Assembly (NCBI RefSeq): GCF_001889605.1
Contig: NZ_CP018171.1
Span: 3,928,501 to 3,992,500 of the forward strand
DNA from: Aquibium oceanicum
GTDB lineage: Bacteria > Pseudomonadota > Alphaproteobacteria > Rhizobiales > Rhizobiaceae
Direction: 5' to 3'
DNA length: 64,000 bases
The stretch's first letter is position 1. Each line of letters begins with the position of its first letter. The position numbers were made by a program, and so were the translations under genes. The notes under the pieces were generated by a model, which was not told where the DNA came from, did no database searches, and saw only the letters and a program-made list of their open reading frames with translations. Of this stretch, positions 15,949 through 37,761 are shown one piece after another.

Positions 15949-16239
15949 CTTATTCTCCACCCACAAATTATTATTATTTTTTCATAGCGCACTATATTGT
16001 TATAAGCAACTCGAATCAGAATATTACATAGATATATTGAAACAGGGAGAGCATACGAAAAGGTCTCCCATATCGAAGGCGGATCACACTGCCGCGTGAA
16101 CGATTCCAGTAGAGTATCCCGCTTCAACCCCGCTTGAACGCAGCGTCAGCTTTTTTCGCTTGCCCTTCCTCACGCTGTTCGGCCATCACTCGCGCGCCGA
16201 CGCCAGATCGGCCGACAGTATCGTCTCGAGGAAATGCCG
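15949..16239. other. Low-GC gene-free stretch
   Basis: About 290 bases separate the DUF3616 gene from gshA. The first half (about 15955-16060) is strikingly A+T rich, with runs such as TTATTATTATTTTTT, unlike the GC-rich rest of the window. It probably holds the DUF3616 promoter. The half next to gshA returns to normal composition. No open frame or RNA gene is supported. Confidence 0.6.
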
Positions 16240-17874: not shown

Positions 17875-17992
17875 GTGGTCCTTTTCCGGGCACCGGGTCG
17901 GACGCGCATGCATCCAGGATCGGGAACCGGGTCTCGCAACGCCCTTTGAGCAATGATACCCTTTCGTGATTGCTTCTTCGAGGAGAAATCCC

Positions 17993-18895
17993 ATGCTGCC
18001 GCTCTACGACATGCTCGCCGCGCAGAACGGCCAGGCTTTCGAGGCGCTGGCGCGCCAGTTCGGGCTCTCGCAGCAGCAAGCGCGCGCGGCCGTCGAGGCC
18101 GTCCTGCCGGCCTTCAGCCAGGGGCTGAAGCAGAACGCCTCCGATCCCTATGGCCTTGGGACGTTCATCGCGGCACTTTCCAGCGGTCAGCATGCGAACT
18201 ATTTCGACAATCCGGCCAATGCGTTTTCTCCGGCCGGTCTCGCCGACGGCAACGGCGTTCTCGGCCATCTTTTCGGCTCGAAGGACCTGTCGCGCGCCGT
18301 CGCGCAGCAGGCGGCGTCCTTGACCGGCCTCGGCGAGGGGCTGATCCGGCAGATGTTGCCCGCCATGGCATCCATGATCATGGGCGGGCTTTTCAAGCAG
18401 ATGACAGGTCAGCTCGGTCCCGGGCCGGCCGTGCAGCCCAATTTCGGCTCCGCCAGCTTCGGCGGCAGCAACCCGTTGGCGGACGCGATGGCCCAGATGA
18501 TGCGGCAGGGCGCCGACGCCATGACCGGTCAGCCGCAACGGCGCGCTCCCGAACAGGCGAACCCGATGGACAATCCCTTCGGGCGGATGATGCAGGATAT
18601 GTTTGCCGGCGCTTCCGGCCGGCCGCCGGAGCCCGAGCCGGCGGCAAAGAGCCCCAGCGCTGCCAATCCATTCGGCAAGATGATGGAAGACTGGATGCGC
18701 TTGGCCCAGCCGGGCGGAGCGGCGGAAGAACCCCAGGAAGAACGGCGCGAGAACCCAAGCGGCCGTCCGCGCACGCCCTGGGACGATCTTTTCGGCGACA
18801 TGTTCGAGACCGGCGCCAGGCAGCGCGACGACTACCAGAAGAACATGGAGGCGATCGTCGACCGCTATCTCAGGGACGTGGCCCGCAACCGCTGA
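17993..18895 (+). CDS. DUF937 domain protein
   Basis: This 300-residue protein has an N-terminal DUF937-like helical region (YDMLAAQNGQAFEALARQFG, LSQQQARAAVEAVLPAFSQGL, VAQQAASLTGLGEGLIRQML) followed by a low-complexity tail rich in Gln, Pro, Gly and Met. The ATG at 17993 has AGGAG at 17981-17985. Such proteins are widespread in rhizobia with no known activity. The helical repeats and glutamine-rich tail suggest protein interaction. Nothing in the neighbourhood points to a role. Confidence 0.8.
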   Translation: MLPLYDMLAAQNGQAFEALARQFGLSQQQARAAVEAVLPAFSQGLKQNASDPYGLGTFIAALSSGQHANYFDNPANAFSPAGLADGNGVLGHLFGSKDLSRAVAQQAASLTGLGEGLIRQMLPAMASMIMGGLFKQMTGQLGPGPAVQPNFGSASFGGSNPLADAMAQMMRQGADAMTGQPQRRAPEQANPMDNPFGRMMQDMFAGASGRPPEPEPAAKSPSAANPFGKMMEDWMRLAQPGGAAEEPQEERRENPSGRPRTPWDDLFGDMFETGARQRDDYQKNMEAIVDRYLRDVARNR

Positions 18896-18943
18896 CGGGC
18901 CCGGGGGCTACCGGGAACTCGTCAGTTGGCGCGGTCGCGAAAG

Positions 18944-19198
18944 TCAGTCGCCCATCAAGAGGCGCGCTTCCCGTGCGGCCTCGATGAAGTCCCTGCGGGC
19001 GCGGTGAGGCTGGACGTCGCCCTTCAATGCGGAGAGGCAGGTCGCCATCGCCTTCTGCCGCTTCGGCAGATCATCGCCGGGCCAGTCGCGCAGAAGCGCC
19101 TCGGCCGCTTCCCTCAGACTGCGAACTTCCCGCACCCTGCCGAGCCGCGGCTCGATGACGATCGACGACTTGAAACGCCTGTCCTTCATCATGCGCAT
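18944..19198 (-). CDS. DUF982 domain small protein
   Basis: This 84-residue protein contains VREVRSLREAAEALLRDWPG, AMATCLSALKGDVQPHRARRDFIEAAREA and LL. This is the DUF982 pattern, found in many copies in rhizobial genomes. It is a single compact alpha-beta domain of unknown function. Three ATGs lie within the first four codons, so the start is uncertain by a few residues. It stands just downstream of the last gene of the aromatic operon, on the same strand but 72 bases away. Confidence 0.8.
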   Translation of the reverse strand: MRMMKDRRFKSSIVIEPRLGRVREVRSLREAAEALLRDWPGDDLPKRQKAMATCLSALKGDVQPHRARRDFIEAAREARLLMGD

Positions 19199-19270: not shown

Positions 19271-20167
19271 TTAGCGTCCTGTACCGCCTTTTCGCGCCAA
19301 CACGAAATCGTGCTCCACGTCCCAGAACGAACCCGCGAACTCCAGCTCCCGAGCCCGATCCGCGTCGTCGATCTTGCGGAATTCGGCGAGCAGGCTCTCC
19401 TTCACGCCGAACACCGCATCGGAATTGATGTAGCGGTCGTGCGGATCGAAGATGTGCGTCGTCAGGGTCTCGAACCCTTCGGCCTTGATGATGTAGTGCA
19501 GGTGCGCCGGCCGGTAGGGATGCCGGCCGAGCTGACCGAGCAGCTGACCCACGGGGCCGTCGTCGGGGATCGGATAGAATTTCGGCTTCACGGCGCGGAA
19601 CCAGTAGCTTCCGTCCGGCCCGGTGCGGAAGATGCCGCGCAGGTTGAAATGCGGCTGGATGCCCTTCTGTTGCACGTCGTAGAAGCCTTCCTCATTGGCC
19701 TGCCAGACGTCGATCACCGCGTCGGCGACCGGCTGGCCCTCGGTGTCGAGGATACGGCCCGAGACGACCATGTCCTCGCCCTTCTGGTCCAGGCAGATAT
19801 TGGCGCCCATCGGCAGTTCCGGCGCGCCTTCGACGTGGAAGGGGCCGAGCACCGTGCTCTCCGAGGCGCCCGAAGGTTTGCGGTTGTTGATCGCGTCGAC
19901 CAGCATGGAGACGCCGAGGATGTCCGACAGGAGGATGTATTCCTGGCGCCACTCGTTGCAGATCTGGCCGGTCCTGGTCAGGAAGAGGATTGCCTGAAGC
20001 CATTCCTCCTGCGTCGGTTCGATCTCCTTCACCGCCTCGTGCAGTTTGCGTGTGATCACTTCCATGGCGAACTTCAGCCGTTCGTCCTTCGCCGCAGCAT
20101 TGCGGCCGGTGACGACCTCCACCGAATCCTCCTCGGTGAAAAAACCCTTCTCATGTGCTTCGGTCAT
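19271..20167 (-). CDS. Hydroxyquinol 1,2-dioxygenase-type intradiol enzyme (copy 1)
   Basis: This 298-residue protein has an N-terminal helical dimerisation domain (FLTRTGQICNEWRQEYILLSD) and the intradiol beta fold. Iron ligands are visible as Tyr163 (NEEGFYDVQ), Tyr198 (KFYPIPDDGPVG), His222 and His224 (RPAHLHYI). Spacing is close to that of known hydroxyquinol 1,2-dioxygenases, and the NNRKPSGASESTVLGPFH region fits that subgroup rather than plain catechol dioxygenases. It would open hydroxyquinol to maleylacetate. It is the last gene of the operon, 5 bases after the flavin hydroxylase. Substrate choice between hydroxyquinol and substituted catechols is inferred. Confidence 0.87.
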   Translation of the reverse strand: MTEAHEKGFFTEEDSVEVVTGRNAAAKDERLKFAMEVITRKLHEAVKEIEPTQEEWLQAILFLTRTGQICNEWRQEYILLSDILGVSMLVDAINNRKPSGASESTVLGPFHVEGAPELPMGANICLDQKGEDMVVSGRILDTEGQPVADAVIDVWQANEEGFYDVQQKGIQPHFNLRGIFRTGPDGSYWFRAVKPKFYPIPDDGPVGQLLGQLGRHPYRPAHLHYIIKAEGFETLTTHIFDPHDRYINSDAVFGVKESLLAEFRKIDDADRARELEFAGSFWDVEHDFVLARKGGTGR

Positions 20168-20172
20168 GGCGT

Positions 20173-21927
20173 TCACCTGTCCAGAATTGATGTGAGCACG
20201 CGGCGGAGTTCGTCCACCGGTTTGTCGGGGATCGTTTCGCTCCGCCACGCGACGTGGTGGTCCGGTCGTACGAGCACCGCGCCGGAATCGCGGGTCTCGC
20301 GTGCACGCGCCCAGTCGCCGGCATAGTCCTCCCACTGCTGGCGCGGACCGATCGTCTGGACCGAGATCTCGATACCGAGTTCCTCGCCAACGGCACGCGC
20401 CGCCTCGTTCCAGCCCTTGCCGCCGATGCCGGTCAGGAGCGAGAACCGTCCATGGCCGGCGAGGTCGAGCGTGGAAACCTTTTCGCCATTCGGACCGAAG
20501 ACCCAGACGTGCGGCAGCCGCGCACCGGGCCATGTCGTCGGCTGGTAATGCAGTTCGGCGTCCTTCTCGAATGCCGGCTCGGCCTGTCCGTCGGTCACGA
20601 TTGCCTCCGAACGATAGCGCTGGTTCATCTCGACGCCATGCGCGTCGAACTCGTAGACCTTATAGGCGATTGCCTCGCGGATGGCGGTGCGCTGAGCTTC
20701 GGCGTCGGCCGTGTCGTCGCAGCGCGCATCCATGTTCTGCTGCATCTTCACGGGATCGATCGAATCCAGCAATCCGAGCCCCTTGAAGATCGGCCCGAAC
20801 TCCTCGATCGACTTGTTGGCGCGGGTGACGATCTGCTTGGCGATTGGCGCGCGCTCGACCTGATAGCTGTCGAGCAAACGTGTTCCCGCCTGTCCCCTGA
20901 CGACCATGGCGAGCTTCCAGGCGAGATTGAAGGCGTCCTGGATGGAGGTGTTGGAACCAAGCCCGTTGGAAGGGGGGTGCCGGTGGATCGCGTCGCCCAT
21001 GCAGAACACCCGCCCGTTGGAGAGGGTCGTCGCGTACATGTTGTTGACCGTCCAGGTCGAGACGGAGGTGATCTCGACGTCGAGATCGGGATCGCCGACG
21101 AGATCCCGCGCGACCTTTTTCGCGAAGGCCTCGTCCACCTCCGGCTCGGGGCCGTTGATGTCGTAGCCCCAGACGATGAGCCACTCGTTCCATGGCCGGA
21201 TCATGCGGACCAGACCCATACCGATGCCGCCGACGTTCGATCCCGGCTGCAGAACCCAGTAGAGAACGGAGGGCCGGTGGGCGACGTATTTCGACAGGTC
21301 CGCCTTGAAGAGGATGTTCATCGATCCGCCGACGCCCATCTTGCCTTCGAACTCCAGCCCGGCATACTCGGCCACCTTCGAGTTGCCGCCGTCCGCGCCG
21401 ACGAAATACTTCGAGCGGATGGTGATCTCCTTCCCGGTCAGCCGGTCGAGGCAGGTGGTGGTGACGCCGTCCGCGTCCTGCTCGTGGCGGAGATATTCCG
21501 TCGACATGCGCGCCTGCGTCCCGCGCGAGCAGGCAGTCTTGAAGAGGACGGGCTCCATGTAGGTCTGCGGGCAGTCGTTCATGTGGGTGGGTGAGGAAAG
21601 AAGGTGCTCGGCGCGCGACAGCGGATGCTTGCCCCAGCTACGCATGCGCCCGATCTCCTCGCCCGCCAGCGACGTGCAGAAGACGTTCTCGCCCATCAGG
21701 TCCTGGTCCGTGCCGTAGAGGTAGACCTCGTCCTCGACCGCACGGCCGAGGTCGCGCAGCACCTCCATCGCCCGCTGGTTGGTGATGTGCGCGCGCGGCG
21801 TGTTGGCGAGCCATCGGTAGCGGTTGATGACCATGTTCTCGACCCCGTAGGTCGAGAGCAGCGCGGCGGTGGCCGATCCGGCCGGCCCCGTGCCGATGAT
21901 GAGTACGTCGGTGGTGATGTCAGCCAT
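20173..21927 (-). CDS. FAD-dependent phenol hydroxylase (TfdB-like)
   Basis: This 584-residue flavoprotein monooxygenase has the dinucleotide motif VLIIGTGPAGSATAALLS at residues 8-25, a middle VGADGGNSKVAEYAG, and the FAD motif VFCMGDAIHRHPPSNGLGSN near 300. The C-terminal thioredoxin-like domain of phenol hydroxylases begins near residue 450. Length and motifs fit the group of 2,4-dichlorophenol 6-monooxygenase and related single-component hydroxylases. In this operon it would add a ring hydroxyl to a phenol such as resorcinol or hydroquinone to give hydroxyquinol. The start overlaps livM by 8 bases. The true substrate is unknown; a chlorophenol cannot be excluded. Confidence 0.87.
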   Translation of the reverse strand: MADITTDVLIIGTGPAGSATAALLSTYGVENMVINRYRWLANTPRAHITNQRAMEVLRDLGRAVEDEVYLYGTDQDLMGENVFCTSLAGEEIGRMRSWGKHPLSRAEHLLSSPTHMNDCPQTYMEPVLFKTACSRGTQARMSTEYLRHEQDADGVTTTCLDRLTGKEITIRSKYFVGADGGNSKVAEYAGLEFEGKMGVGGSMNILFKADLSKYVAHRPSVLYWVLQPGSNVGGIGMGLVRMIRPWNEWLIVWGYDINGPEPEVDEAFAKKVARDLVGDPDLDVEITSVSTWTVNNMYATTLSNGRVFCMGDAIHRHPPSNGLGSNTSIQDAFNLAWKLAMVVRGQAGTRLLDSYQVERAPIAKQIVTRANKSIEEFGPIFKGLGLLDSIDPVKMQQNMDARCDDTADAEAQRTAIREAIAYKVYEFDAHGVEMNQRYRSEAIVTDGQAEPAFEKDAELHYQPTTWPGARLPHVWVFGPNGEKVSTLDLAGHGRFSLLTGIGGKGWNEAARAVGEELGIEISVQTIGPRQQWEDYAGDWARARETRDSGAVLVRPDHHVAWRSETIPDKPVDELRRVLTSILDR

Positions 21928-23014
21928 GCGGCCCTCCCCTGGTGCCCGTTTTGTCGAAATTCGGCCCGCCCTTCAGGATGCGGCGGACCGGGAAGAACTG
22001 GATGCCGGTGCGGTCGCTGAAGAGGCCCCACAGCCCCTTCGGCGCGAACAGCATGACGGCGATGCCGATCAGCCCCAGCACAAGCAAATACCAGGAGCCG
22101 AAATCGGCAAGCGTCTTCTGCAGGATGAAGAACACGATGACGCCGACGATCGGGCCTTCCAGCGTGCCGATGCCGCCGATGACGACGATGAAGATGACGT
22201 AGGCGGTCCAATCTATCACCGAGAAGGCGGCGTCCGGCGAGATGCGGGCTTTCTGGACGTAGATCAGCGCGCCGGCGAGGCCCGTGGCGAAGGCCACGGC
22301 CACGTAGACGATCCACTTGATGCGCCGCGCATCGACGCCGACCGAACGCGCCGCTTCCTGGTTGTCGCGGACGGCCGCCAGTCCGAGCCCCTGCCGGGAC
22401 CTGAGCAGCCAGTAGATGAAGCCGGTCGTGGCGCAGACCAGCACCAGCGCCAGCCAGTAGGTCAGGATGTCGGCCGCCTGCGAGGAGCGGACGCCGAAGG
22501 CGTCCGAAATCCACTCGACGGGTGGGAAGTCGCGGATCGCCGTGTTCGGCAGCGAGGTGCCGGTACCTCCGCCGAGCGCGCGCCATTGCGCCAGCACCAG
22601 CCGGACGACCTCCGCTACGACCCAGGTCCCGATGGCGAAATAGGCGCCGTAGAGCCGGAAGACGAAGAAGCCGGTGGCGATCGAAAGAAGCGCCGCGGCG
22701 ATACCGCCGACGAGGATCGCGCTGACCGGGTCCAGCCCCCAAAGGCTGACGCAGGCAAACATCGCATAGGCGCCGAAGCCGACGAAGGCCTGCTGGCCGA
22801 CCGAGACTAGCCCCGCATAGCCTGCGAGCAGGTTCCAGTTCTGCGCGAGCACCAGCATGGTGAGGATGAAGAAGAGGTCCTGCAGCGTCCCGCGCGACAC
22901 GAAGAGCGGCGCGGCAACGGCGACCGCGAGCAGGACGATTGCGACGATCGCGAAGCCTGTCGCCGCGCGCGTTCGGGTCCGGACCGTCCAGGGGGTGATG
23001 GTGCCTGCGCTCAT
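21920..23014 (-). CDS. livM: Branched-chain-type ABC permease LivM
   Basis: This is a membrane permease of 364 residues from the ATG at 23014. About ten hydrophobic helices are visible. LVLAQNWNLLAGYAGLVSVGQQAFVGFGAY is the LivM signature near residue 60, and GLAAVRDNQEAARSVGVDARRIK is the coupling loop facing the ATPases. The frame could start at 23035, but 23014 gives MSAGTITPWTV and avoids a 14-base overlap with livH. It belongs to the five-gene importer of the aromatic operon and probably carries an aromatic acid or phenol rather than an amino acid. Confidence 0.88.
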   Translation of the reverse strand: MSAGTITPWTVRTRTRAATGFAIVAIVLLAVAVAAPLFVSRGTLQDLFFILTMLVLAQNWNLLAGYAGLVSVGQQAFVGFGAYAMFACVSLWGLDPVSAILVGGIAAALLSIATGFFVFRLYGAYFAIGTWVVAEVVRLVLAQWRALGGGTGTSLPNTAIRDFPPVEWISDAFGVRSSQAADILTYWLALVLVCATTGFIYWLLRSRQGLGLAAVRDNQEAARSVGVDARRIKWIVYVAVAFATGLAGALIYVQKARISPDAAFSVIDWTAYVIFIVVIGGIGTLEGPIVGVIVFFILQKTLADFGSWYLLVLGLIGIAVMLFAPKGLWGLFSDRTGIQFFPVRRILKGGPNFDKTGTRGGPHG

Positions 23015-23021
23015 CGCAGCC

Positions 23022-23885
23022 TCAGTCCGTCGCACGCGGGAACAGGCCGCGCGGCCTGGCGAGCAGGACGACGAGGAAGGCGACGTGACCTGCCAGGATC
23101 TGCCATTCCGGGTTGATGGCGGCGCCGAGCGTCTGCGCCACGCCGATGATGATGCCGCCCGCCAGCGTGCCCCAGAAGGAGCCGAGCCCGCCGATGATGA
23201 CCGCCTCGAAGGCGTAGATCAGCCGCGCCGGCCCGATCGTCGGGTCGAAATTGGACCGGGTGCCGAGATAGAGCGCCGCGATCGTCACCACGATCATCGC
23301 GAGCCCCGTCGCCGTCGCGAACAGCCGTTTCGGATCGACGCCCATCAGCCCCGCTGTCACCGCGTCGTCCGACGTGGCGCGGAAGGCGCGGCCGAGTTCG
23401 GTGCGGTAGAAGAGGAGATTGAGGCCGAGGATCACCGCGACGGCAGAGACGAAGGTCAGGAGCGGCATCACGCCGACGGCGATCGGTCCGAGGCTGATCG
23501 AGGCGGTTTCCAGCGCACCGGCCGGGATGCGCCGGCTGTCGGCCGAAAAACTCTCCAGAAGCGCGTTCTGGATGACGATCGACAGTCCGAAGGTGACAAG
23601 CAGGGGCGGCAGGATGTCGTCGCCGAGCGTACGGTTGAGCACGTGGTACTGCAGGAGCCATCCGAGCCCGAACATCACCGGCAGCGCCACCAGAGCTGCG
23701 AGGAAGGGATTGAGACCGAGGGCCGTCACCAGGACGAGAATGAGGAAGGCCCCGAGTACGATCAGGTCGCCGTGGGCGAGGTTGACCAGCCGCATGACGC
23801 CGAAGACGAGGCTCAGCCCCGCGGCGAAGAGGGCATAGAGCCCGCCCAGCAGAATTCCCTGCACGATCGTGTCGACCCAGATCAT
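23022..23885 (-). CDS. livH: Branched-chain-type ABC permease LivH
   Basis: This 287-residue permease begins MIWVDTIVQGILLGGLYALF and carries the LivH signature FGVMRLVNLAHGDLIVLGAF near residue 30 and the coupling loop RAFRATSDDAVTAGLMGVDPKR. It has about eight hydrophobic helices. The ATG at 23885 overlaps the livF stop by 4 bases. The frame is open much further upstream, but that stretch lies over livF and has no membrane character. It pairs with LivM as the inner-membrane channel of the importer. Confidence 0.9.
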   Translation of the reverse strand: MIWVDTIVQGILLGGLYALFAAGLSLVFGVMRLVNLAHGDLIVLGAFLILVLVTALGLNPFLAALVALPVMFGLGWLLQYHVLNRTLGDDILPPLLVTFGLSIVIQNALLESFSADSRRIPAGALETASISLGPIAVGVMPLLTFVSAVAVILGLNLLFYRTELGRAFRATSDDAVTAGLMGVDPKRLFATATGLAMIVVTIAALYLGTRSNFDPTIGPARLIYAFEAVIIGGLGSFWGTLAGGIIIGVAQTLGAAINPEWQILAGHVAFLVVLLARPRGLFPRATD

Positions 23886-24589
23886 GCGGCTGCCCCGAAA
23901 TAGGCGGCGTGGATGCGCTGTCGGTCGAGCTCGGCCGGGCGCCCGCTGAGCGTCACGCGCCCCTCCATCATGCAGTAGACGCGGTCGGCCACCTTCATGG
24001 CCTGGCTGATGTCCTGCTCGACGATCACGAGCGAGGCGCCCGCGGCCTTGATCTTCGGGAAGGCGGCGTAGATGTCGCGGATGACGACCGGCGCCAGCCC
24101 GAGGCTGATCTCGTCGCACAGGAGCACGCGCGGGTTGGACATCAGCGCCCGTCCGATCGCCACCATCTGCTGCTGCCCGCCCGACAGCGCCGTTCCGGGG
24201 CTGCCGCGGCGCTCCTTGAGGATCGGGAAGAGCTCGTAGACCGTATCGAGAGACCAGGCGCCTGCGGCCTTGCGGCCGTAGCTGCCCATCAGCAGGTTCT
24301 CCTCGACGGACAACGACGGGAAGAGCTTGCGGCCTTCCGGTACCATGGCGATGCCGCGCGCCATGACCTTGGCGGACGCGAGCGCGCCGATCGGCTCGCC
24401 GTCGAACAGGATTTCCCCCGGCGCGTTCGGCAGGACGCCGGCGATGGATCGCATCAGCGTCGTCTTGCCGGCGCCGTTCGCTCCGATGATGGCGACCGTT
24501 TCGCCGGCCTCCAGCACGACGTCGACGCCGAAGAGCGCCTGGAAATCGCCGTAACGGGCCGTCAATCCCCTGGTCACGAGCAGCGGCAT
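23882..24589 (-). CDS. livF: ABC transporter ATPase LivF
   Basis: This 235-residue ATPase has Walker A GANGAGKTTLMRSIAG near residue 37, signature LSGGQQQMVAIGRALMSNP near 135, Walker B RVLLCDEISLGLAP, and switch His replaced by Gln (VIVEQD), as is usual in LivF. The start is the ATG at 24589, sharing one base with the livG stop. It provides one of two ATP sites of the importer in this operon. Confidence 0.92.
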   Translation of the reverse strand: MPLLVTRGLTARYGDFQALFGVDVVLEAGETVAIIGANGAGKTTLMRSIAGVLPNAPGEILFDGEPIGALASAKVMARGIAMVPEGRKLFPSLSVEENLLMGSYGRKAAGAWSLDTVYELFPILKERRGSPGTALSGGQQQMVAIGRALMSNPRVLLCDEISLGLAPVVIRDIYAAFPKIKAAGASLVIVEQDISQAMKVADRVYCMMEGRVTLSGRPAELDRQRIHAAYFGAAA

Positions 24590-25311
24590 CAGACCTCGAT
24601 CCCGAGATAGATTTCGCGCACCTCGCGCGAGGCCATGATCTCGTCGGGCTTGCCGATGCCAATCACCTTGCCGAAATCGAGCACGAGCAGGCGCTCCACC
24701 ACCGAGTTCAGCGCATGCAGAACGTGCTCGATCCAGATGATTGACATGCCGGAGGCGTGGATGTCGCGGATGGTGGCGACGAGTTGCGTGCATTCGCCTT
24801 CCGTAAGTCCGCCGGCGATCTCGTCGAGCAGGAGCACCTTGGGTGCCGTCGCCAGCGCCCGCGCCAGTTCCAGCCGCTTGCGCTCCAGCAGTGACAGCCG
24901 CCCGGCCGGAACGTTGGCGCGCGCGATCAGCCCCGTCTGGACGAGGATGTCGGCGCAGGCGTCGGCCACGTCCGCCTCGCGCTTACGCGAACCGAAGGAG
25001 CCGGCGACCAGCAGGTTCTCGAAGGCGGTGAGCTTTTCGAAAGGCTGTGGAATCTGGAACGTCCTGCCGACGCCCATGAGGCAGCGCTGCATCGGCGCCG
25101 CGTGGGTCACGTCGGTGCCGGCGAAGACGATGCGGCCGCCGTCCACCTTGAGATTGCCCGTGATTAGGTTGAACAGCGTGGACTTGCCGGCGCCGTTCGG
25201 TCCGATGATGCCGAGCGCCTCGCCCGAACCGAGCGCGAACGACACCTCGTCGGCGACCGTGAGGGCGCCGAACCTCTTCGTCAGGCCGATGATTTCGAGC
25301 ACGGGCTGCAC
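24589..25311 (-). CDS. livG: ABC transporter ATPase LivG
   Basis: This 240-residue ATPase has Walker A GPNGAGKSTLFNLITG near residue 38, signature region LSLLERKRLELARALATAPKV and Walker B LLLDEIAGGLTEGE. The signature reads LSLLE instead of the common LSxGE/Q, a variation seen in some LivG-type subunits. The GVGRTFQIPQPFEKLTAFENLL segment is typical of LivG. It follows the binding-protein gene after a strong hairpin, so it may be expressed at a lower level. Confidence 0.9.
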   Translation of the reverse strand: MQPVLEIIGLTKRFGALTVADEVSFALGSGEALGIIGPNGAGKSTLFNLITGNLKVDGGRIVFAGTDVTHAAPMQRCLMGVGRTFQIPQPFEKLTAFENLLVAGSFGSRKREADVADACADILVQTGLIARANVPAGRLSLLERKRLELARALATAPKVLLLDEIAGGLTEGECTQLVATIRDIHASGMSIIWIEHVLHALNSVVERLLVLDFGKVIGIGKPDEIMASREVREIYLGIEV

Positions 25312-25341
25312 GCCAGCGGAACTCCAGGTTTAGGGTGTGGT

Positions 25342-25365
25342 GGGCGGGCGGTTTCCCGCCCGCCC
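25342..25365 (-). terminator. Stem-loop after the binding-protein gene
   Basis: GGGCGGGCGG (25342-25351) and CCGCCCGCCC (25356-25365) form a perfect 10-base GC stem with a 4-base loop. It lies in the 65 bases between the binding protein and livG. No T-run follows in the direction of transcription, so it is more likely a partial attenuator or an mRNA-stabilising 3' hairpin that raises binding-protein expression above that of the permease genes. Confidence 0.65.
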
Positions 25366-25376
25366 GATTATTGAGA

Positions 25377-26657
25377 TCAGACGATCGGTTCCATCTGGCC
25401 GCCGGTGGGGATGTTCGGTGCCGTCTTGTTGTCGACGACGACCAGATCGTAGCTGCCACCATCCTTAAGCCGCCACTGGCCGCCGACCAGCGGCGTCTTG
25501 GCGACGTTCTTTTGGGCGAAGGGCGGCAGGTTGGCGCCGTCCCACGTCACCGGTCCAACGAGCGTGTCGAGCTTGGTGGCGGCGATCGCGGCCACGACCG
25601 CGTCGGGATCCGTCGTGTCGCCCGCCCGCTTGGCGACGTCGACGGCGACCTCGAACAGCGCGTGGATGAAGCCGATCGGCTGCGTCCACGGACGGCCGGT
25701 CGCGGCGGTGAAGCCTTCGGCCACCTGTGCGGAAGTCTCGCCCGTGAGCGAGGACTTGAACGGATGGCTCGGCGACCACCACACCTCGGACGACAGGTTG
25801 TGGCCCGAATCGCCCAGCGCCTCGACCGCCTGCGGGAACAGGATCGCCTTGCCGATCGAGGCGACCTTCGGCGTGAAGCCCTGCTGCTTCGCCTGGTTCC
25901 AAAAGGTGGTGAAGTCCGGCGGGATCACGACGCCCGTGATGATCTCGGCGTTGGCCTGCTTGAACGCGTTGATCTGGGCGGAAAAGTCATCGGTGAGGTT
26001 CTGATAGCGGCCCGGATCGGTGAGCGTGTAGCCCTTTTCCGCGAGCACCGGCGGGAAGCCGACGTTCGGATCGCCCCAGGCGTTGCCGTCGCCGTCGTTG
26101 GGGAAGAGCGCGCCGACCTGCTTGTTGGTCTCGACCTGCGCCCACATGTTGGTGAACACGGCGATGACGTCCTCCAGCCCCCAGAAGAAGTGGAAGGAGC
26201 TGTTGAAGGGCTGCCAGCTCGACGGGTCGCCGGGGTTAGCCTGCTGGCCGATGAACCAGGGCTGCCAGGGCGCCATGGTGGAGATGCAGGGGACTTCCTC
26301 GGCTTCGCAGGTCGTGGTCACCGGATTGGTGGTCTCCGGCGTCGAGGCCACGAGCATGATGTGGATCTCGTCGCTGACGATCAGTTCCTTGGCCACTTCG
26401 GCGGCGCGGTTCGGATTGGACTGGCTGTCCTTGACGATGACCTCGAAGTTCAGTCCGGCGGCCTTGGTGGCCTTCATGAAGTTCTCGATGACGAAATTGT
26501 CCGCCTCGGCGAAGGCGGCGAGCGGCCCGGTCTGCGGGCTGACATAGCCGAGCTTGACCGGCCCGCTCTGCGCGAGCGCCGGCATCGCGAGGCCGGAGGT
26601 GCCGGCGAGCACGCCGGTGGCGGCGGCATTTTTGAGCAGTGTCCTTCTGGTGATCAT
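25377..26657 (-). CDS. Periplasmic substrate-binding protein, branched-chain/aromatic type
   Basis: This 426-residue protein has a signal with a twin Arg (MITRRTLLKNAAATGVLAG) and then the Peripla_BP_6 fold, starting VKLGYVSPQTGPLAAFAEAD. Other segments are TPETTNPVTTTCEAEEVPCIST and a GWGLEDV-like central hinge (FHFFWGLEDVIAVF). It would deliver the substrate to LivHMGF. The RR motif suggests Tat export, although the following hydrophobic part would also suit Sec. Relatives in catabolic operons bind aromatic acids or other non-amino-acid compounds. The ligand cannot be read. Confidence 0.87.
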   Translation of the reverse strand: MITRRTLLKNAAATGVLAGTSGLAMPALAQSGPVKLGYVSPQTGPLAAFAEADNFVIENFMKATKAAGLNFEVIVKDSQSNPNRAAEVAKELIVSDEIHIMLVASTPETTNPVTTTCEAEEVPCISTMAPWQPWFIGQQANPGDPSSWQPFNSSFHFFWGLEDVIAVFTNMWAQVETNKQVGALFPNDGDGNAWGDPNVGFPPVLAEKGYTLTDPGRYQNLTDDFSAQINAFKQANAEIITGVVIPPDFTTFWNQAKQQGFTPKVASIGKAILFPQAVEALGDSGHNLSSEVWWSPSHPFKSSLTGETSAQVAEGFTAATGRPWTQPIGFIHALFEVAVDVAKRAGDTTDPDAVVAAIAATKLDTLVGPVTWDGANLPPFAQKNVAKTPLVGGQWRLKDGGSYDLVVVDNKTAPNIPTGGQMEPIV

Positions 26658-26688
26658 GTCCTGTCCTCCCTGTTGATGTGACTGCGCT

Positions 26689-27756
26689 TCATTGCGGCGG
26701 TTGCCGTCCCTCCAGGGCATCCTGGAGGAGCGAGCGGATCTGCTGTCGGTCGAAAGGCCTCGGGTTCGAATAGGGGTTCCTCGTCGCGATCTCGGCGGCG
26801 CGATCCAAATCGGCTTCGGTAAGACCGAAATCCGCAAGCCGCATCGGCGAGCCGAGGTCTCGCGCGAAGCGGAACAAGCCGCGCCCCGGCGTATCTCCGA
26901 AAGCCTTGGCGACAGGCTCGAGCAGCCCGGCCGCGGCGCCCGCATTGAACCCGACCGTGTGCGGCAGCAGGATGGCGTGGGTCTCGGCGTGCGGCGTGCC
27001 GAAGCTGCCGCCGAGCGTGTGGCAGAGCTTGTGGTGCAGCGCCATCGCCGAGCCGCCGAGCGCGATGCCGCACAGCCAGGCGCCGTACTGCGCGAGGCTG
27101 CGCGCTTCGACGTCGGACGGATCGCGTACCACTGCCGGAAGTGCCTCGGCGAGCGCGCGGATCGCCTCGGCTGACATCAGCGCGATGACCGGGTTGCGGT
27201 CTTCGGCGTAGAGCGCCTCGGCGGCATGCGCGAGCGCGTTGAGGCCGGAAGTGACGGTCATGCCGACCGGCAGCGTCAGCGTCAGGTCGACGTCGTAGAT
27301 GACGGTCTCTGGCAGGATCGAGGCGTCGCGGCGCGTGGTCTTTTCGCCGCCGGCGGTCTCGCCCAGGATGTCGGTCATCTCCGAGCCGGCATAGGTGGTG
27401 GGAATGACCACCTGGTCGGTGCCGGTACGGGTGGCGATGGCCTTGCCTAGCCCCGTGGTCGAGCCGCCGCCCAGCGCCACGACGCAGTCCGCACCGGAAC
27501 CGCTGAAGACGGCCAGCGCCTTCTCGGTGACCTCGACCGGCGTATGCATGGCGGCCTCGGTGAAGACGCCCGCCGAAAGCGGGCCGAGCCGGTCGGCGAG
27601 CGCATGCGCATCGGCCTCCTGGTTGGGCGTCGAGAGCACGAGGGCGCGGGACCGCCCGAGGCGCTCCACCTCGGCTCCGGTGCGGGCGATGGTTCCGGCA
27701 CCGAAGATCACCCGCGAGCGCAGGCCGGGAAAGACGAACGGAGCGATCGGGGTCAT
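26689..27756 (-). CDS. Maleylacetate reductase
   Basis: This 355-residue iron-containing alcohol dehydrogenase-fold protein has ALGGGSTTGLGKAIATRTG near residue 95, TYAGSEMTDILG near 120, GLNALAHAAEALYAEDRNP near 185 and HHKLCHTLGGSFGTPHAETHAILLPH near 250. These are marks of maleylacetate reductases, which reduce maleylacetate to 3-oxoadipate with NAD(P)H. This is the step after hydroxyquinol ring opening. The ATG at 27756 overlaps the hydrolase stop in an ATGA. Upstream frame extension is out of sense. Confidence 0.92.
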   Translation of the reverse strand: MTPIAPFVFPGLRSRVIFGAGTIARTGAEVERLGRSRALVLSTPNQEADAHALADRLGPLSAGVFTEAAMHTPVEVTEKALAVFSGSGADCVVALGGGSTTGLGKAIATRTGTDQVVIPTTYAGSEMTDILGETAGGEKTTRRDASILPETVIYDVDLTLTLPVGMTVTSGLNALAHAAEALYAEDRNPVIALMSAEAIRALAEALPAVVRDPSDVEARSLAQYGAWLCGIALGGSAMALHHKLCHTLGGSFGTPHAETHAILLPHTVGFNAGAAAGLLEPVAKAFGDTPGRGLFRFARDLGSPMRLADFGLTEADLDRAAEIATRNPYSNPRPFDRQQIRSLLQDALEGRQPPQ

Positions 27757-28394
27757 GGCGTTGCTCCAGTCTGGGCAAGGATCTCGGCGAAGACGTCGAT
27801 CTCGGCGTCGGACACCTCGTGCGCCCGGCCCGGAAAGCTCTCCGCCCGCAAGCGCGCGCCGCAGACGGCGAGATCGGCTGCCGCCGCGAAGGCCGCGGAG
27901 GCCGGTATCCAAGGATCGGCGTCGCTTCCCGACAGGTAGACTGGCAGTCCGTCGAGCCTGCGGCGCGGCGAGGTATCGGTCGGCGGACCGACACGGCAGC
28001 CGGTCAGCGCCACCAGGGCGCCTAGCGCGCGATCACGGCGCATGGCGTATTCCAGCACCAGGCAGGCGCCCTGCGAGAACCCGGCCAGAACCGGCCGGTC
28101 GGACGGCGCCCCGTCGGCCGCCGCAGACGCGATTGCCGCATCGATCGCATCGAGCGCCTCTTCCAGCTGGGCGAGCGTCGCATCGGAGGCGGGATCGATT
28201 GCCCGGGCATCGTACCAGGCTTCCCGCGGCGAGCGCGGCAGCACGAAATGCGTGTCGCCGACCGGCAGGCGGGCGATCACATGCTCGCCCATCTCCTCCG
28301 GCGTCTGCGCCCGCCCATGCACGAACACGCAGAGACGCGCGGCGCTTCGCGGTGGAGCGCCGAGCCTCAGGGACGTGTCGCGCATCTGCGCCAA
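27753..28394 (-). CDS. Alpha/beta hydrolase, phospholipase/carboxylesterase family (MhqD-like)
   Basis: This 213-residue protein starts the fold with LCVFVHGRAQTPEEM. The nucleophile is Ser107 in LAGFSQGACLVLEYAM, an Asp lies in YLSGSDADPWIP near 175, and a His in FPGRAHEVSD near 195. It belongs to the Abhydrolase_2 group that contains MhqD. It is encoded between the VOC dioxygenase-like gene and maleylacetate reductase. It may hydrolyse a ring-cleavage product or an ester substrate entering the pathway; the reaction is not established. Confidence 0.82.
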   Translation of the reverse strand: MAQMRDTSLRLGAPPRSAARLCVFVHGRAQTPEEMGEHVIARLPVGDTHFVLPRSPREAWYDARAIDPASDATLAQLEEALDAIDAAIASAAADGAPSDRPVLAGFSQGACLVLEYAMRRDRALGALVALTGCRVGPPTDTSPRRRLDGLPVYLSGSDADPWIPASAAFAAAADLAVCGARLRAESFPGRAHEVSDAEIDVFAEILAQTGATP

Positions 28395-28418
28395 GTCGTT
28401 CTCCTCCCGCCGACCGAC

Positions 28419-29366
28419 CTACCAGTGGAACTCTTCGAGGCCGGCGATCATCTCGGCCTTACGATCCTCGAACCAGGGCGGGAAGACGAGCGTGCGGCCG
28501 GTCTCGCCCGCCGGCTCGTCCACCGCCCAGCCCTGCGGCACCGTCCAGGCGATCTCGAACAGCGCGCCGCTGGGAGAACGCACATAGCAGGACTTGAAGT
28601 AGTTGCGGTCCTTCTGGTCCGAGACGTCGGTGAAGCCAAGTCCCTCGAGATGCGCCTTCAGCTTGAGCTGGTTCTCCTCGTCGCCCGTGTCGAGCGCCAG
28701 GTGGTGGATCGTACCGCCGGCGAGCGTCCACGTGCCCTGCGGCTTGTCGGGCTCGTGCAGCACCTCGACGGCGGTGGTCGCGCCGGCGCCGGCCAGCTTG
28801 AACTTCAGGTCCGGGCCATCCTCGCCGTCCTTCTCCATGCCCATACCGATGGTCATGAAATCGTCCATGGACGTGCGGTCGTACACCGCGATGCCGATGC
28901 CGTAGATGCCCTTGATGCCGTTTTCCGCGCTGATGCCGTCCGAGACGATGGAGCGGCGGTCGTCCTTCTCGGCCGCCACCAGCTCATGCGGGATGCCGCA
29001 GGGATGCGCGAAGGCGACGCGCGGCAGGCCGAAGCGCTCGGTGCGCTCGGCCTTGAAGCCGGCCGCGTTCAGCCTGTCCTCCCAGAAGTCGAGGCTCTTG
29101 GGCGGCACGGAGAGCTGGATGATCTTCGACTGGTTGGTGCCGCGCTTGCCGAAGACGCCCGGCTTGCGGAAGGGGAAGGTGGTGACGATGGTGGAGGCGT
29201 CGCCGGTCTCGTTGGCATAATAGAGATGGTAGACGGGCGTCGTGCCGTCGAAGAGCACGGTCTTCTTGATCGACTTCATGCCGAGCGTGCCGGTGAAGAA
29301 ATCGAAGTCCTCCTGGGCGCCGTCGACGCTCATCGTGACGTGGTGGTATCCGCTGATCAGTGCCAT
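28419..29366 (-). CDS. VOC-superfamily ring-cleaving dioxygenase (MhqO-like)
   Basis: This 315-residue protein consists of two vicinal-oxygen-chelate halves. Likely metal ligands are a His in SGYHHVTMSVD at residues 8-9, a His in GGTIHHLALDTGD in the second half, and a Glu in GALFEIAWTVPQG near the end. Segments such as FFTGTLGMKSIKKTVLFDGT, PVYHLYYANETGDAST and TTFPF match the ring-cleaving dioxygenases linked to quinol breakdown (MhqA/MhqO, LinE-like). It would open para-hydroquinone-type rings using Fe(II). Here it sits with an MhqD-like hydrolase inside a hydroxyquinol operon. Confidence 0.85.
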   Translation of the reverse strand: MALISGYHHVTMSVDGAQEDFDFFTGTLGMKSIKKTVLFDGTTPVYHLYYANETGDASTIVTTFPFRKPGVFGKRGTNQSKIIQLSVPPKSLDFWEDRLNAAGFKAERTERFGLPRVAFAHPCGIPHELVAAEKDDRRSIVSDGISAENGIKGIYGIGIAVYDRTSMDDFMTIGMGMEKDGEDGPDLKFKLAGAGATTAVEVLHEPDKPQGTWTLAGGTIHHLALDTGDEENQLKLKAHLEGLGFTDVSDQKDRNYFKSCYVRSPSGALFEIAWTVPQGWAVDEPAGETGRTLVFPPWFEDRKAEMIAGLEEFHW

Positions 29367-29415
29367 CTCGTTCCTCCCTTGAATTCAGGCGTGGGGCATG
29401 AAGGCTGCGTCGTTC

Positions 29416-30294
29416 CTATGTCGGCGGTCTCGCCGGTCTGGCGCGCGCCATGACGAAGTCGAAGTCGAGCGACCAGGCCGGCACGCCGTCGGCGCCCGAT
29501 TGCGGCCGGAAGTCCCCGACCAGTTCTGGCTTGACGCCGAACAGCGCGTCGCGGTGCAGGTCCGGGTCGCCGCGCTCGTAGACATGCGTGGTGAGCGTCT
29601 CGAACCCTTCGGCGCGGATCATGAAATGCAGGTGCGCCGGGCGGCGCAGAGGATAGCCGACATGCCTCAGCAACTGCCCGACCGGGCCGTCGTCGGGCAC
29701 ACGATAGCCGGCCGGCTTGACGGTGCGGTAGTAGAAGTGGCCGTCGGCACCGGTGGTGAAGGCGCCGCGCAGGTTGAATTCGGGCTGCAGGTCCGGCTGC
29801 TGGTTCTCGTACAGTCCCTCGGAATTAGCCTGCCAGGTCTCGACCACCGCGCCCGGTATCGGATTGCCGTCGAGGTCGCGCACGTGACCCGACACGCACA
29901 GCGGCTCTCCCACTCCGTCGAGCGAGACGATCGCTCCCATCGGCAGGCGCGGCACATCCGATCTGTAGAAGGGACCGCGGATCGTGTTGGGCGTGGCGCC
30001 CGCTGGACGCCGCGAGTTGATGTCCTCGACTAGCGCGGAGACCCCGAGCAGATCGGACAGCAGGATCCACTCCTGCCGCCGCTCGTCGCTGGCGTGGCCG
30101 ACATCCGTCAGAAAACCGATGACGCGGCGCCAGTCGGCATGGCTCGGGCGCGCTTCCTTGACGACCTGGTGCAGGTGTTCGACGACGCTGACCAACACCC
30201 GCGACAGTCGCCCGTCGCCGGCCCCGAGCAGGCGCTCGGCGACGACCTGAGCGGAATTGTGCTCGCCATAGGGATGGCCGGTCGGCAACTGCAT
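29416..30294 (-). CDS. Hydroxyquinol 1,2-dioxygenase-type intradiol enzyme (copy 2)
   Basis: This 292-residue paralogue of the operon's last gene has the same layout: helical linker (FLTDVGHASDERRQEWILLSD) and iron ligands Tyr162 (NSEGLYENQ), Tyr197 (AGYRVPDDGPVG), His221 and His223 (RPAHLHFM). The two copies clearly share the RPAHLHxxIxAEGFETLTTH block but differ widely in the N- and C-terminal 40 residues. It is the first gene of the operon, just after the divergent LysR promoter. Having two intradiol enzymes suggests different substrate ranges or conditions. Confidence 0.87.
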   Translation of the reverse strand: MQLPTGHPYGEHNSAQVVAERLLGAGDGRLSRVLVSVVEHLHQVVKEARPSHADWRRVIGFLTDVGHASDERRQEWILLSDLLGVSALVEDINSRRPAGATPNTIRGPFYRSDVPRLPMGAIVSLDGVGEPLCVSGHVRDLDGNPIPGAVVETWQANSEGLYENQQPDLQPEFNLRGAFTTGADGHFYYRTVKPAGYRVPDDGPVGQLLRHVGYPLRRPAHLHFMIRAEGFETLTTHVYERGDPDLHRDALFGVKPELVGDFRPQSGADGVPAWSLDFDFVMARARPARPPT

Positions 30295-30381
30295 CGTTCC
30301 TCCCCGGGATTGTGACCGGACGTTGCGGAGCCAAGAATAGTCGAACGATGGCGATACTGGATGATTTTCCTACACCTTTAG

Positions 30382-30398
30382 CATAGCATATCGCTATG
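30382..30398. promoter_or_regulatory. Palindrome overlapping the LysR start codon
   Basis: CATAGC (30382-30387) and GCTATG (30393-30398) are a perfect inverted repeat around ATATC. The ATG of the LysR gene (30396) is inside the right arm. The site contains the T-N11-A type symmetry expected of LysR-family binding sites and lies about 90 bases from the divergent operon start. It is a likely autoregulatory and operon-control site. Confidence 0.5.
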
Positions 30399-31346
30399 AA
30401 ACTCGATGAACGTCATCTCGTCCAGCTGGCCGCCGTCGTCCAGGCGGGCGGCGTGACCGAAGGCGCGGCGCTGATCGGCATGACGCAACCCGCCGTCTCG
30501 CGCACGCTTTCGATGTTGGAGAAGCGTCTTGGAGAAGCACTGTTTGTCAAGGGCCGCCGCCCTTTGCAGCCGACTCCGCTGGGGCGGGCTTTGGCCGAAC
30601 ACGGCCAGGCGATGCTGCTCGCCTCTCGAAAAGCCTCCGAACTGGTCGAAAGCTTCCACCATGGCCGGGGCGGGCTGGTTCGCATCGGCGGAACCCCGTT
30701 CTTCATGGACGCCCTCATCTCCGGTACGATCGCCGAATTCCAGAACCACTATCCCGACGTGCGCGTCGACCAGAGCTACGGATATCTCCAGGAGCTTCAG
30801 GCCTCCGTCATCGCCGGCCGGCTCGACCTCGCCATCTGCCCGATCGACATTGTCGACGAAGGGTCGGGGCTTGAGTTCCAGGAGATCCTGCCGGGTCGCA
30901 ACGTCGTCGCCTGCCGCTCGACCCACCCGCTGCTCATCAAGCGTCGGCTGGGCGGCAAGGAACTGCTCGACTATCCCTGGATCGCGCCGCCGCCCGGCAG
31001 TCCGCTGCTGGCCGACCTGCGCAGCCTGCTCCTGTCGCTCGGCGCCACCGAGATCAAGGTGCGCTATTCCGGCGGGTCGCTCACCAGCGCCATGACCTAC
31101 CTGAAGAGCACCGACGCGCTGACCGTTCTGCCGCATGGCGTGGTCTTCGCCTTCCGCAAGGAGAAGTCGATCACCGCCCTGCCCCTGAACATCCCGCACC
31201 CGGAACGCGCGCTCGGCCTGCTACGACTCGCCGACGCACCGCGGTCGCCTGCCGTGGAGAAATTCGCCCTGCACGTACGCCAGAGCTTCGACAACCTGCG
31301 CCATCTGATCAAGCGGCACGAGCAGGCGGTGGTATGGGGCGCGTGA
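30396..31346 (+). CDS. LysR-type regulator of the aromatic operon
   Basis: This 316-residue LysR protein has an N-terminal winged HTH (LVQLAAVVQAGGVTEGAALI, GMTQPAVSRTLSMLEKRLGEALF, residues 8-54) and a periplasmic-binding-like effector domain starting VRIGGTPFFMDALISG. It diverges from an eleven-gene catabolic operon across 101 bases and is the only regulator nearby, so it is the likely activator that responds to the aromatic substrate or a pathway intermediate. An inverted repeat overlaps its own start codon. Confidence 0.88.
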   Translation: MKLDERHLVQLAAVVQAGGVTEGAALIGMTQPAVSRTLSMLEKRLGEALFVKGRRPLQPTPLGRALAEHGQAMLLASRKASELVESFHHGRGGLVRIGGTPFFMDALISGTIAEFQNHYPDVRVDQSYGYLQELQASVIAGRLDLAICPIDIVDEGSGLEFQEILPGRNVVACRSTHPLLIKRRLGGKELLDYPWIAPPPGSPLLADLRSLLLSLGATEIKVRYSGGSLTSAMTYLKSTDALTVLPHGVVFAFRKEKSITALPLNIPHPERALGLLRLADAPRSPAVEKFALHVRQSFDNLRHLIKRHEQAVVWGA

Positions 31347-32303: not shown

Positions 32304-32380
32304 TGGTACGGTTGCTCGGGATCGAACCGAGGACCTCCGGATCCACAATCCGGCGCTCTAACCATCTGAGCTACAACCGC
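32304..32380 (-). tRNA. tRNA-His (GTG anticodon)
   Basis: The 77-base cloverleaf reads on the minus strand from GCGGTTG (32380) through TAGCTCAGATGGTTAGAGC (D arm), CCGGA-TTGTGGA-TCCGG (anticodon arm, GTG) and GGTTCGATCC (T arm), to CAACCGT-A-CCA. The CCA end is encoded and the discriminator is A73. The base before position 1 in the gene is T, so no G-1 is encoded, and A73 cannot pair with a G-1. This is the alphaproteobacterial form of tRNA-His. The G1-T72 pair closes the acceptor stem as a wobble. Confidence 0.97.
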
Positions 32381-33195: not shown

Positions 33196-33337
33196 GCATT
33201 GAGCCGGCGAGATTAACCAAGGGGCCACAAAAGCGCCGGCTCGCCGGGGTGTGATGTGGACGCGGGAAGGCTTGTCTTTTACTAACAAAGTCTTAACGCC
33301 CGGGTCAGGGGAGCCGGACGGGATGGGGTCGGTGCGG

Positions 33338-37644: not shown

Positions 37645-37761
37645 TATTGAATTTGCTGAACTTATGTTGACCCGATAGCGCCTTTCCAGCAAAAGGTGGC
37701 GCTGTTCAGGATGCGGGCACCGGCCCACATCCGCGGATTCGTACAACGTGAGGAGACCTCC

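Follow-up and report, generated by a model that had tools for sequence, protein, structure and literature searches.

We analysed a 64,000-nucleotide stretch of the Aquibium oceanicum genome (NZ_CP018171.1:3,928,501-3,992,500, here called the window; the genome comprises 5.32 Mb in two contigs) that carries an operon with the gene content of a hydroxyquinol-type pathway and an ATP-binding cassette (ABC) importer of its own. Judged by open reading frames and start choices, eleven contiguous minus-strand genes run from position 30294 down to 19271 and encode, in transcription order, an intradiol dioxygenase (HQD1), a hydroquinone dioxygenase of the glyoxalase/VOC type (VOC), a serine hydrolase (ABH), a maleylacetate reductase (MAR), a periplasmic binding protein (SBP), the importer components LivG, LivF, LivH and LivM, a flavin monooxygenase (FMO) and a second intradiol dioxygenase (HQD2) (Table 1). 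With the chosen starts, the successive intergenic gaps are 49, 33, -4, 31, 65, -1, -4, 7, -8 and 5 bases, and 101 bases separate the operon from a divergent plus-strand LysR gene. This layout agrees with the original prediction, an earlier note on the same DNA that had described eleven close-packed genes facing one LysR gene; the gaps range from -8 to +65 bases, and this spacing together with the gene order suggests co-transcription. A Pfam scan of ten operon and regulator proteins likewise returned the protein families named in that note, with the reductase assigned by its closest solved relatives, whereas LivG and LivF lay outside the scan and are named from their sequence and conserved order. 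The operon has a GC content of 0.64-0.68, near the 0.62-0.66 of the remaining window, and this gives no strong sign of recent arrival.

Table 1. Coordinates, strand and basis of assignment of the operon genes, control region and regulator in the window (aa, amino acids).
Feature	Position	Strand	Basis
LysR-type regulator	30396..31346	+	Pfam PF00126+PF03466
Putative divergent control region	30295..30395		Alignment of relatives' intergenic regions
HQD1, hydroxyquinol-type intradiol dioxygenase, 292 aa	29416..30294	-	PF04444+PF00775; solved relatives 8r2x, 1tmx
VOC, PcpA/LinE-type (type I) hydroquinone 1,2-dioxygenase, 315 aa	28419..29366	-	Glyoxalase/VOC; 4huz
ABH, phospholipase/carboxylesterase-type serine hydrolase, 210 aa	27753..28385	-	PF02230
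MAR, maleylacetate reductase, 355 aa	26689..27756	-	Fe-ADH type; 3hl0, 3w5s
SBP, periplasmic binding protein, 426 aa	25377..26657	-	PF13458
LivG-type ABC ATPase	24589..25311	-	Sequence and conserved operon place
LivF-type ABC ATPase	23882..24589	-	Sequence and conserved operon place
LivH-type permease	23022..23885	-	PF02653
LivM-type permease	21920..23014	-	PF02653
FMO, single-component flavin phenol monooxygenase, 584 aa	20173..21927	-	PF01494+PF21274
HQD2, hydroxyquinol-type intradiol dioxygenase, 298 aa	19271..20167	-	PF04444+PF00775; 8r2x; copy kept in most relatives

Ring cleavage, hydroxylation and the proposed pathway

HQD1 and HQD2 share 48% identity, and for each the bit score against solved hydroxyquinol-type dioxygenases was at least twice that against any catechol 1,2-dioxygenase. 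HQD2 reached 339.6 bits with 8r2x versus 132.9 with the best catechol dioxygenase, and HQD1 reached 278.4 bits with its best hydroxyquinol-type relative versus 134.2 with the best catechol-type one. MAR matched 3hl0 (442 bits) and 3w5s (440 bits), both named maleylacetate reductase, over nearly its full length. The route from hydroxyquinol through maleylacetate to 3-oxoadipate is established in other systems, and the relatives of the operon point to the same end product, because 3-oxoadipate genes adjoin it in some of them: a gene of one cluster follows HQD2 in eight related loci, both of the two copies scanned scored above the NCBIfam cut-off for 3-oxoadipate:acetyl-CoA acetyltransferase, and at locus L114 PcaI/J- and PcaF-type genes lie between HQD2 and the LysR gene, adjoining the operon. 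Four BKACE genes are present elsewhere in the genome of the window. A further pair of intradiol dioxygenase genes, at G000:C1:3622370-3624005, probably encodes the subunits of a protocatechuate 3,4-dioxygenase.

FMO is a whole-length relative of the 2-hydroxybiphenyl-3-monooxygenase 4cy6 (611.8 bits) and the 2,4-dichlorophenol 6-monooxygenase 6u0p (488.7 bits). It shares 71-85% identity with its counterparts in related operons, 53.7% with the monooxygenase encoded beside catA on pPHE69, which we take to be PheA, and 54.6-56.4% with two plasmid genes annotated tfdB, a level that does not settle the substrate of FMO. Enzymes of the TfdB/HbpA class hydroxylate phenols without a carboxyl group, and for this reason we favour, as a guess, a resorcinol-like compound as the substrate of the operon. 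Of the nine PF04909 amidohydrolases in the genome, a family that holds the resorcylate decarboxylases, none lies in the window, which leaves the operon without a link to a carboxylated precursor.

Two other gene settings concern possible sources of the substrate. Near the operon, five loci (L046, L103, L106, L109 and L133) carry acyl-CoA-dehydrogenase-fold genes of one cluster, the L046 copy of which was scanned and belongs to PF08028, and L153 carries an annotated gene of this fold beside a flavin reductase gene; these are possibly oxygenase components of two-component monooxygenases that could make the operon substrate. On a Cupriavidus basilensis plasmid (L142:6276-18036), genes for a 68% identical FMO and an intradiol dioxygenase stand among amidohydrolase, CocE-type hydrolase, AMP-binding and enoyl-CoA hydratase genes, a setting that may indicate a longer-chain phenolic precursor.

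On balance, we think it probable that the operon is a LysR-controlled unit for scavenging and mineralising a small phenolic compound, with greater confidence in the ring cleavage and reduction and less in the uptake and the nature of the substrate. The LivFGHM-type importer and SBP would take up the substrate, and FMO, to judge from its family, would hydroxylate it beside an existing hydroxyl group to give hydroxyquinol (1,2,4-trihydroxybenzene). HQD2, aided by HQD1, would then open hydroxyquinol to maleylacetate, as their families support, and MAR would yield 3-oxoadipate, to be finished by 3-oxoadipate genes elsewhere, an assignment consistent with its family and with the linked genes of relatives. 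VOC and ABH may open a hydroquinone, probably a substituted one, and deliver maleylacetate to the same MAR. The impression given by the original prediction, of a catabolic unit of the hydroxyquinol type that is self-contained and brings an importer with it, is supported.

Distribution of the operon and its regulator

At E<=1e-100, FMO was found in all five genomes of the genus and in 39 of 397 sampled across the order; at E<=1e-200 it was found in 26 of 151 genomes sampled from the family, the window's genome being counted each time. In 29 other loci, LivM preceded FMO and HQD2 followed it without exception, and LivH was present in 28, L018 ending at a contig edge. Related loci of at least 9 kb, the window excluded, numbered 120 (117 distinct). 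The nine-gene order HQD1-MAR-SBP-LivGFHM-FMO-HQD2 occurred in 54 of them (52 distinct), and the full eleven-gene order, which the earlier note had proposed to look for in other genomes, in 14 (13 distinct), a share that is not a frequency, since L159-L166 were chosen for carrying VOC and L155-L158 for belonging to the same genus. The nine-gene form without HQD1 accounted for 17 loci, in three of which (L125, L140 and L160) the locus begins inside MAR and the absence of HQD1 is unshown; the remaining 35 had other arrangements or were ended by contig or locus ends. In 23 of the 120 loci FMO had no adjoining Liv gene; among these are Rhodobacterales loci with a split arrangement, plasmid homologues that are more distant, and L128, L137 and L139. 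The 80 named loci are the best 80 of at least 598 pattern matches, and close relatives are favoured among them.

The operon is conserved and widely carried in rhizobia and Rhodobacterales. Of a one-off or recently acquired pathway, the one-off was rejected because the operon recurs across the order. The claim in the earlier note that the operon is unusual did not hold up, given its recurrence across Hyphomicrobiales and Rhodobacterales and the rhizobial precedent of PcaMNVWX/PcaQ described in excerpts of an earlier report (PMC4495286).

The LysR protein scored 133.4 bits against TIGR02424 (PcaQ), whose cut-off is 303.8; it resembles PcaQ while falling far below the threshold of the model. Of the 107 LysR-facing intergenic regions, 36 were picked by hand and aligned without a control; the pattern kept by the majority consists of TATATTA, AAATCATCAA and TGCTA, and it is partly degenerate in the window and weaker in the four separate VOC units among the aligned regions. 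One PcaQ-type operator pattern matched none of the 107 intergenic regions, and canonical promoter and terminator signals showed no clear excess over shuffles.

The importer, the VOC-ABH pair and rival explanations

LivH scored 84.2 bits against the curated LivH model (cut-off 379), LivM 122.5 bits against the LivM model (cut-off 366) and SBP 33.8 bits against the branched-chain binding-protein model (cut-off 477), so that none of these three scanned proteins reached the models of the LivFGHMK branched-chain amino acid importer. The structural model of SBP (pLDDT 84.5) matched binders of pyroglutamate, leucine, hydroxybenzoate/vanillate and urea, and its fold was rejected as a pointer to the ligand, the top matches being mixed in ligand class. 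An SBP of at least 67% identity was found in 25 of the 151 family genomes, 24 of which also have FMO (in G462, on different contigs); the 25th, G411 (L183), has MAR-SBP-LivGFHM and a 55% identical HQD2 homologue without FMO, and two FMO genomes, G458 and G476, have binding proteins of just 60-61% identity. In another setting (L187:5163-13569), a paralogous SBP and LivGFHM lie directly behind genes for a gentisate 1,2-dioxygenase (over its cut-off), an FAA hydrolase and maiA-type and AraC-type proteins, and may form with them a further importer-equipped operon for an aromatic compound.

VOC matched the 2,6-dichloro-p-hydroquinone 1,2-dioxygenase 4huz at 234.7 bits versus 152 for MhqO (3oaj), and would supply the second, non-intradiol ring-cleavage enzyme that had been proposed for the operon. 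Residues H9, H222, E271, R254 and Y261 are invariant in 19 aligned sequences; the first three fall at the aligned metal-ligand places of 4huz and are presumably metal ligands, and R254 and Y261 we take to be second-shell residues. ABH scored 61.9 bits against PF02230 (cut-off 23), and its structural model (pLDDT 93.8) had the carboxylesterase 4h0c as best fold match. S104, D157 and H189, presumably its Ser-Asp-His triad, are invariant in 21 aligned sequences. The aligned sequences were hand-picked: 10 for FMO, 53 and then 50 of 116 matches for SBP, 19 of 34 for VOC, and 21 and then 20 of 32 for ABH.

VOC and ABH are part of the operon both in the window and in 13 other distinct eleven-gene loci, and in L059 and L060 they directly precede MAR without HQD1. 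Eleven loci (L046, L049, L070, L075, L080, L103, L106, L108, L109, L111 and L160) have a separate LysR-VOC-ABH unit near the operon, in some cases with an SBP gene alongside. VOC was found at E<=1e-60 in 10 of the 151 family genomes, all ten of which have FMO (hypergeometric p 4e-9, a value overstated by the relatedness of the genomes and the linkage of the genes), and at E<=1e-50 in 5 of 398 genomes of the phylum, G823 and G593 among them. The VOC-ABH pair is an accessory cassette slotted into the hydroxyquinol operon in some relatives.

ABH directly precedes MAR in 16 of 90 distinct operons. For these 16, the nearest relative by identity also had ABH before MAR in 16/16 cases for MAR, 15/16 for SBP, 13/16 each for LivH and LivM, 11/16 each for LivG and LivF, 10/16 for FMO, 11/14 for HQD1 and 8/14 for HQD2. 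Mapped onto trees, this gene order required two changes for MAR, three for SBP and six each for FMO and LivH. The trees comprised 72 SBP, 55 MAR, 56 FMO and 56 LivH hand-picked rows and were built by a quick method with SH-aLRT support only; duplicates by monooxygenase sequence (L102, L157 and L164, the FMO of L157 being that of L074) were excluded from the trees and neighbour counts. Since the MAR tree needs two changes versus six on the FMO and LivH trees, MAR was largely inherited together with the VOC-ABH pair, and on the simplest reading of this co-inheritance MAR would receive what VOC and ABH produce. Within the genus, L156 and L074 are 92-98% identical from LivG to HQD2 and only 65% in MAR, 82% in SBP and 81% in HQD1, whereas the MAR and SBP of L156 are nearer the window's copies (85% and 90%). 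Because L156 matches L074 in one part of the operon and the window in MAR and SBP, we infer that a block of VOC, ABH, MAR and SBP has been exchanged. In the SBP tree, one group (SH-aLRT 96) holds 13 of the 16 proteins from ABH-before-MAR operons and all ten second SBPs that adjoin VOC-ABH; the SBPs of the window, L156 and L159 fall outside it, with those of plain nine-gene operons.

The chief competing account of the pair, possible though in our view doubtful, is that it acts as a quinone-detoxification module like MhqE-MhqD of Firmicutes, removing hydroquinones or thiol adducts that arise from auto-oxidising hydroxyquinol and not feeding MAR. VOC does match MhqO, MhqD is assigned to the enzyme class to which ABH belongs, and the excerpted text of one report describes MhqE/MhqD as a quinone-inducible dioxygenase and phospholipase/carboxylesterase (PMC6798810); the eleven separate LysR units outside the operon would also fit such a role. 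However, VOC is nearer the PcpA-type 4huz than MhqO, several of the separate units have their own SBP, as would suit catabolism, and MAR has largely travelled with the pair. That the importer instead transports an amino acid or some other compound that is not aromatic, and owes its place among these genes to chance or to co-regulation, we regard as unlikely. The leucine, pyroglutamate and urea binders among the fold matches speak for it, as do a 53% identical SBP paralogue beside BKACE and 3-hydroxyacyl-CoA dehydrogenase genes (L194), the distant binding proteins of G458 and G476 and the place of the window's SBP outside the VOC-linked group. It fits poorly with the scores of LivH, LivM and SBP far under the curated branched-chain cut-offs, with the presence of FMO in 24 of the 25 SBP genomes and of MAR and an HQD2 homologue in the 25th, and with the grouping of the VOC-linked SBPs. 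Equally, a chlorophenol pathway, in which FMO and HQD1/HQD2 would act on chlorinated phenols and VOC on chlorohydroquinone, could be read from the best solved relatives, a 6-chlorohydroxyquinol 1,2-dioxygenase for HQD1 and HQD2 alike and a 2,6-dichlorohydroquinone dioxygenase for VOC, from the resemblance of FMO to the two tfdB genes, and from a strain, obtained by enrichment on 2,6-dichlorophenol, that carries the 68% identical FMO on a plasmid. Yet the operon is widespread in rhizobia and Rhodobacterales, FMO is about as near to the pPHE69 monooxygenase as to TfdB, and the GC content of the operon is close to that of the rest of the window; we consider a chlorophenol pathway quite improbable.

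The reading that we prefer, import of a small phenolic, hydroxylation, intradiol cleavage and reduction, with the pair as a hydroquinone branch, has its own difficulties. With a 4-base overlap between ABH and MAR, hitch-hiking by adjacency may account for their joint inheritance; L105 lacks the pair, yet its MAR falls in that clade; and the nearest-neighbour counts for LivH and LivM contrast little with that for MAR. Comparison of the sequence and fold of SBP does not separate aromatic from amino-acid ligands, and SBP paralogues of 53-60% identity have gentisate genes as neighbours in L187, whereas in L194 the neighbours are BKACE and 3-hydroxyacyl-CoA dehydrogenase genes. The importer is also separable: L184:1-14086 holds a contiguous HQD1-MAR-FMO-HQD2 without it, a 57% identical binding protein and a Liv set lying ~4 kb off, and in L128, L137 and L139 the stretch examined contains MAR-FMO-HQD2 but no importer gene. 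Because neutral phenols are able to diffuse, an importer devoted to the substrate would be odd if that substrate were neither charged nor very dilute. In addition, no 3-oxoadipate gene was found next to the operon in the window.

A more specific proposal, which we rate as very improbable, is that VOC opens methoxyhydroquinone, a lignin-derived compound made by fungi, between the hydroxyl- and methoxy-bearing carbons to give a maleylacetate methyl ester, from which ABH would free maleylacetate and methanol, with the co-inherited MAR going on to 3-oxoadipate and no demethylase needed. In excerpts of one report, the type II hydroquinone dioxygenase of Sphingomonas TTNP3, which is unrelated to type I, acts on 2-methoxyhydroquinone at 59% of the hydroquinone rate, which speaks for the proposal (PMC3222310). 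The cleavage of 2-chlorohydroquinone by the type I enzyme LinE between the hydroxyl- and chlorine-bearing carbons, stated in the same excerpts (PMC3222310), also counts in its favour. Against it, the TTNP3 enzyme seems to open the ring of the methyl analogue at a site away from the electron-donating group (PMC3222310). The methoxy group, like methyl, is electron-donating. If it were true, resorcinol-type phenols and methoxyhydroquinone would be joined in one importer-fed funnel.

The surroundings of the operon include a tRNA-His gene just past its LysR side (window 32304-32380, -) and a GCS2 glutamate-cysteine ligase gene on its other side (16234-17613); given these flanking genes, the site may be insertion-prone. 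Further out lie a gene for a 1427-amino-acid histidine kinase with PAS-type domains (33251-37534, +) and, after it, genes for a solute-binding protein (37696-38820) and for a permease that has two BPD_transp_1 stretches (38912-40618). An open frame of 344 amino acids at 17953-18987 (+) had no Pfam match, and its shorter form, 17966-18895, no NCBIfam match.

Comparison with known systems

We found no paper describing the operon in the open-licence literature, covered by titles and abstract openings among the matches listed. The components are of known kinds, and within the same coverage their combination with an importer and a hydroquinone branch was not found. The core of the operon is ordinary, and its interest lies in the modular branch and the importer: the operon is common in rhizobia and Rhodobacterales, yet no account of its substrate or importer ligand was found among those matches. 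If SBP proved specific for a neutral dihydroxybenzene, a Liv-type importer would be put to an unusual use, and if VOC-ABH is a hydroquinone branch ending at maleylacetate, a dioxygenase-esterase pair otherwise met as a quinone-stress module would seem to have a part in catabolism. The modular variation among close relatives makes both questions, ligand and branch, testable by simple growth and binding assays.

TfdB, PheA and HbpA are, like FMO, single-component FAD enzymes across their whole length, but FMO is tied in the operon to hydroxyquinol-type and not catechol-type cleavage. VOC resembles the type I enzymes PcpA and LinE, with 4huz as best solved relative and the metal ligands and two second-shell residues kept; unlike them, it is paired with a carboxylesterase inside a hydroxyquinol operon. 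The importer may be likened to PcaMNVWX, which is of the branched-chain type. As described in excerpts of one report, a LysR regulator, PcaQ, controls this aromatic ABC transport operon in Sinorhizobium and Rhizobium, much as proposed here, although PcaMNVWX serves for protocatechuate and its genes may lie apart from those of catabolism (PMC4495286). In mhqED/mhqO of Bacillus and Staphylococcus, according to the excerpted report cited above, a hydroquinone-type dioxygenase likewise adjoins a phospholipase/carboxylesterase (PMC6798810). The mhq genes are MarR-controlled stress genes, whereas VOC-ABH stands in a LysR-controlled catabolic setting with an importer and a reductase. The R. leguminosarum genes pRL120214-218 make up a different cluster to judge from their annotation, which includes an amidohydrolase and a flavin reductase.

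The gra resorcinol genes of Rhizobium sp. MTP-10005 have a two-component resorcinol hydroxylase and are not known to include a Liv-type importer. No such two-component hydroxylase was found in the operon of the window, where a single-component PF01494 hydroxylase is the only one. Like the operon, gra and other hydroxyquinol (benzenetriol) clusters combine a hydroxyquinol 1,2-dioxygenase with a maleylacetate reductase, and MAR is close to 3w5s. What sets the operon apart from gra is the single flavin protein, the presence of two dioxygenases, the importer and the putative hydroquinone branch.

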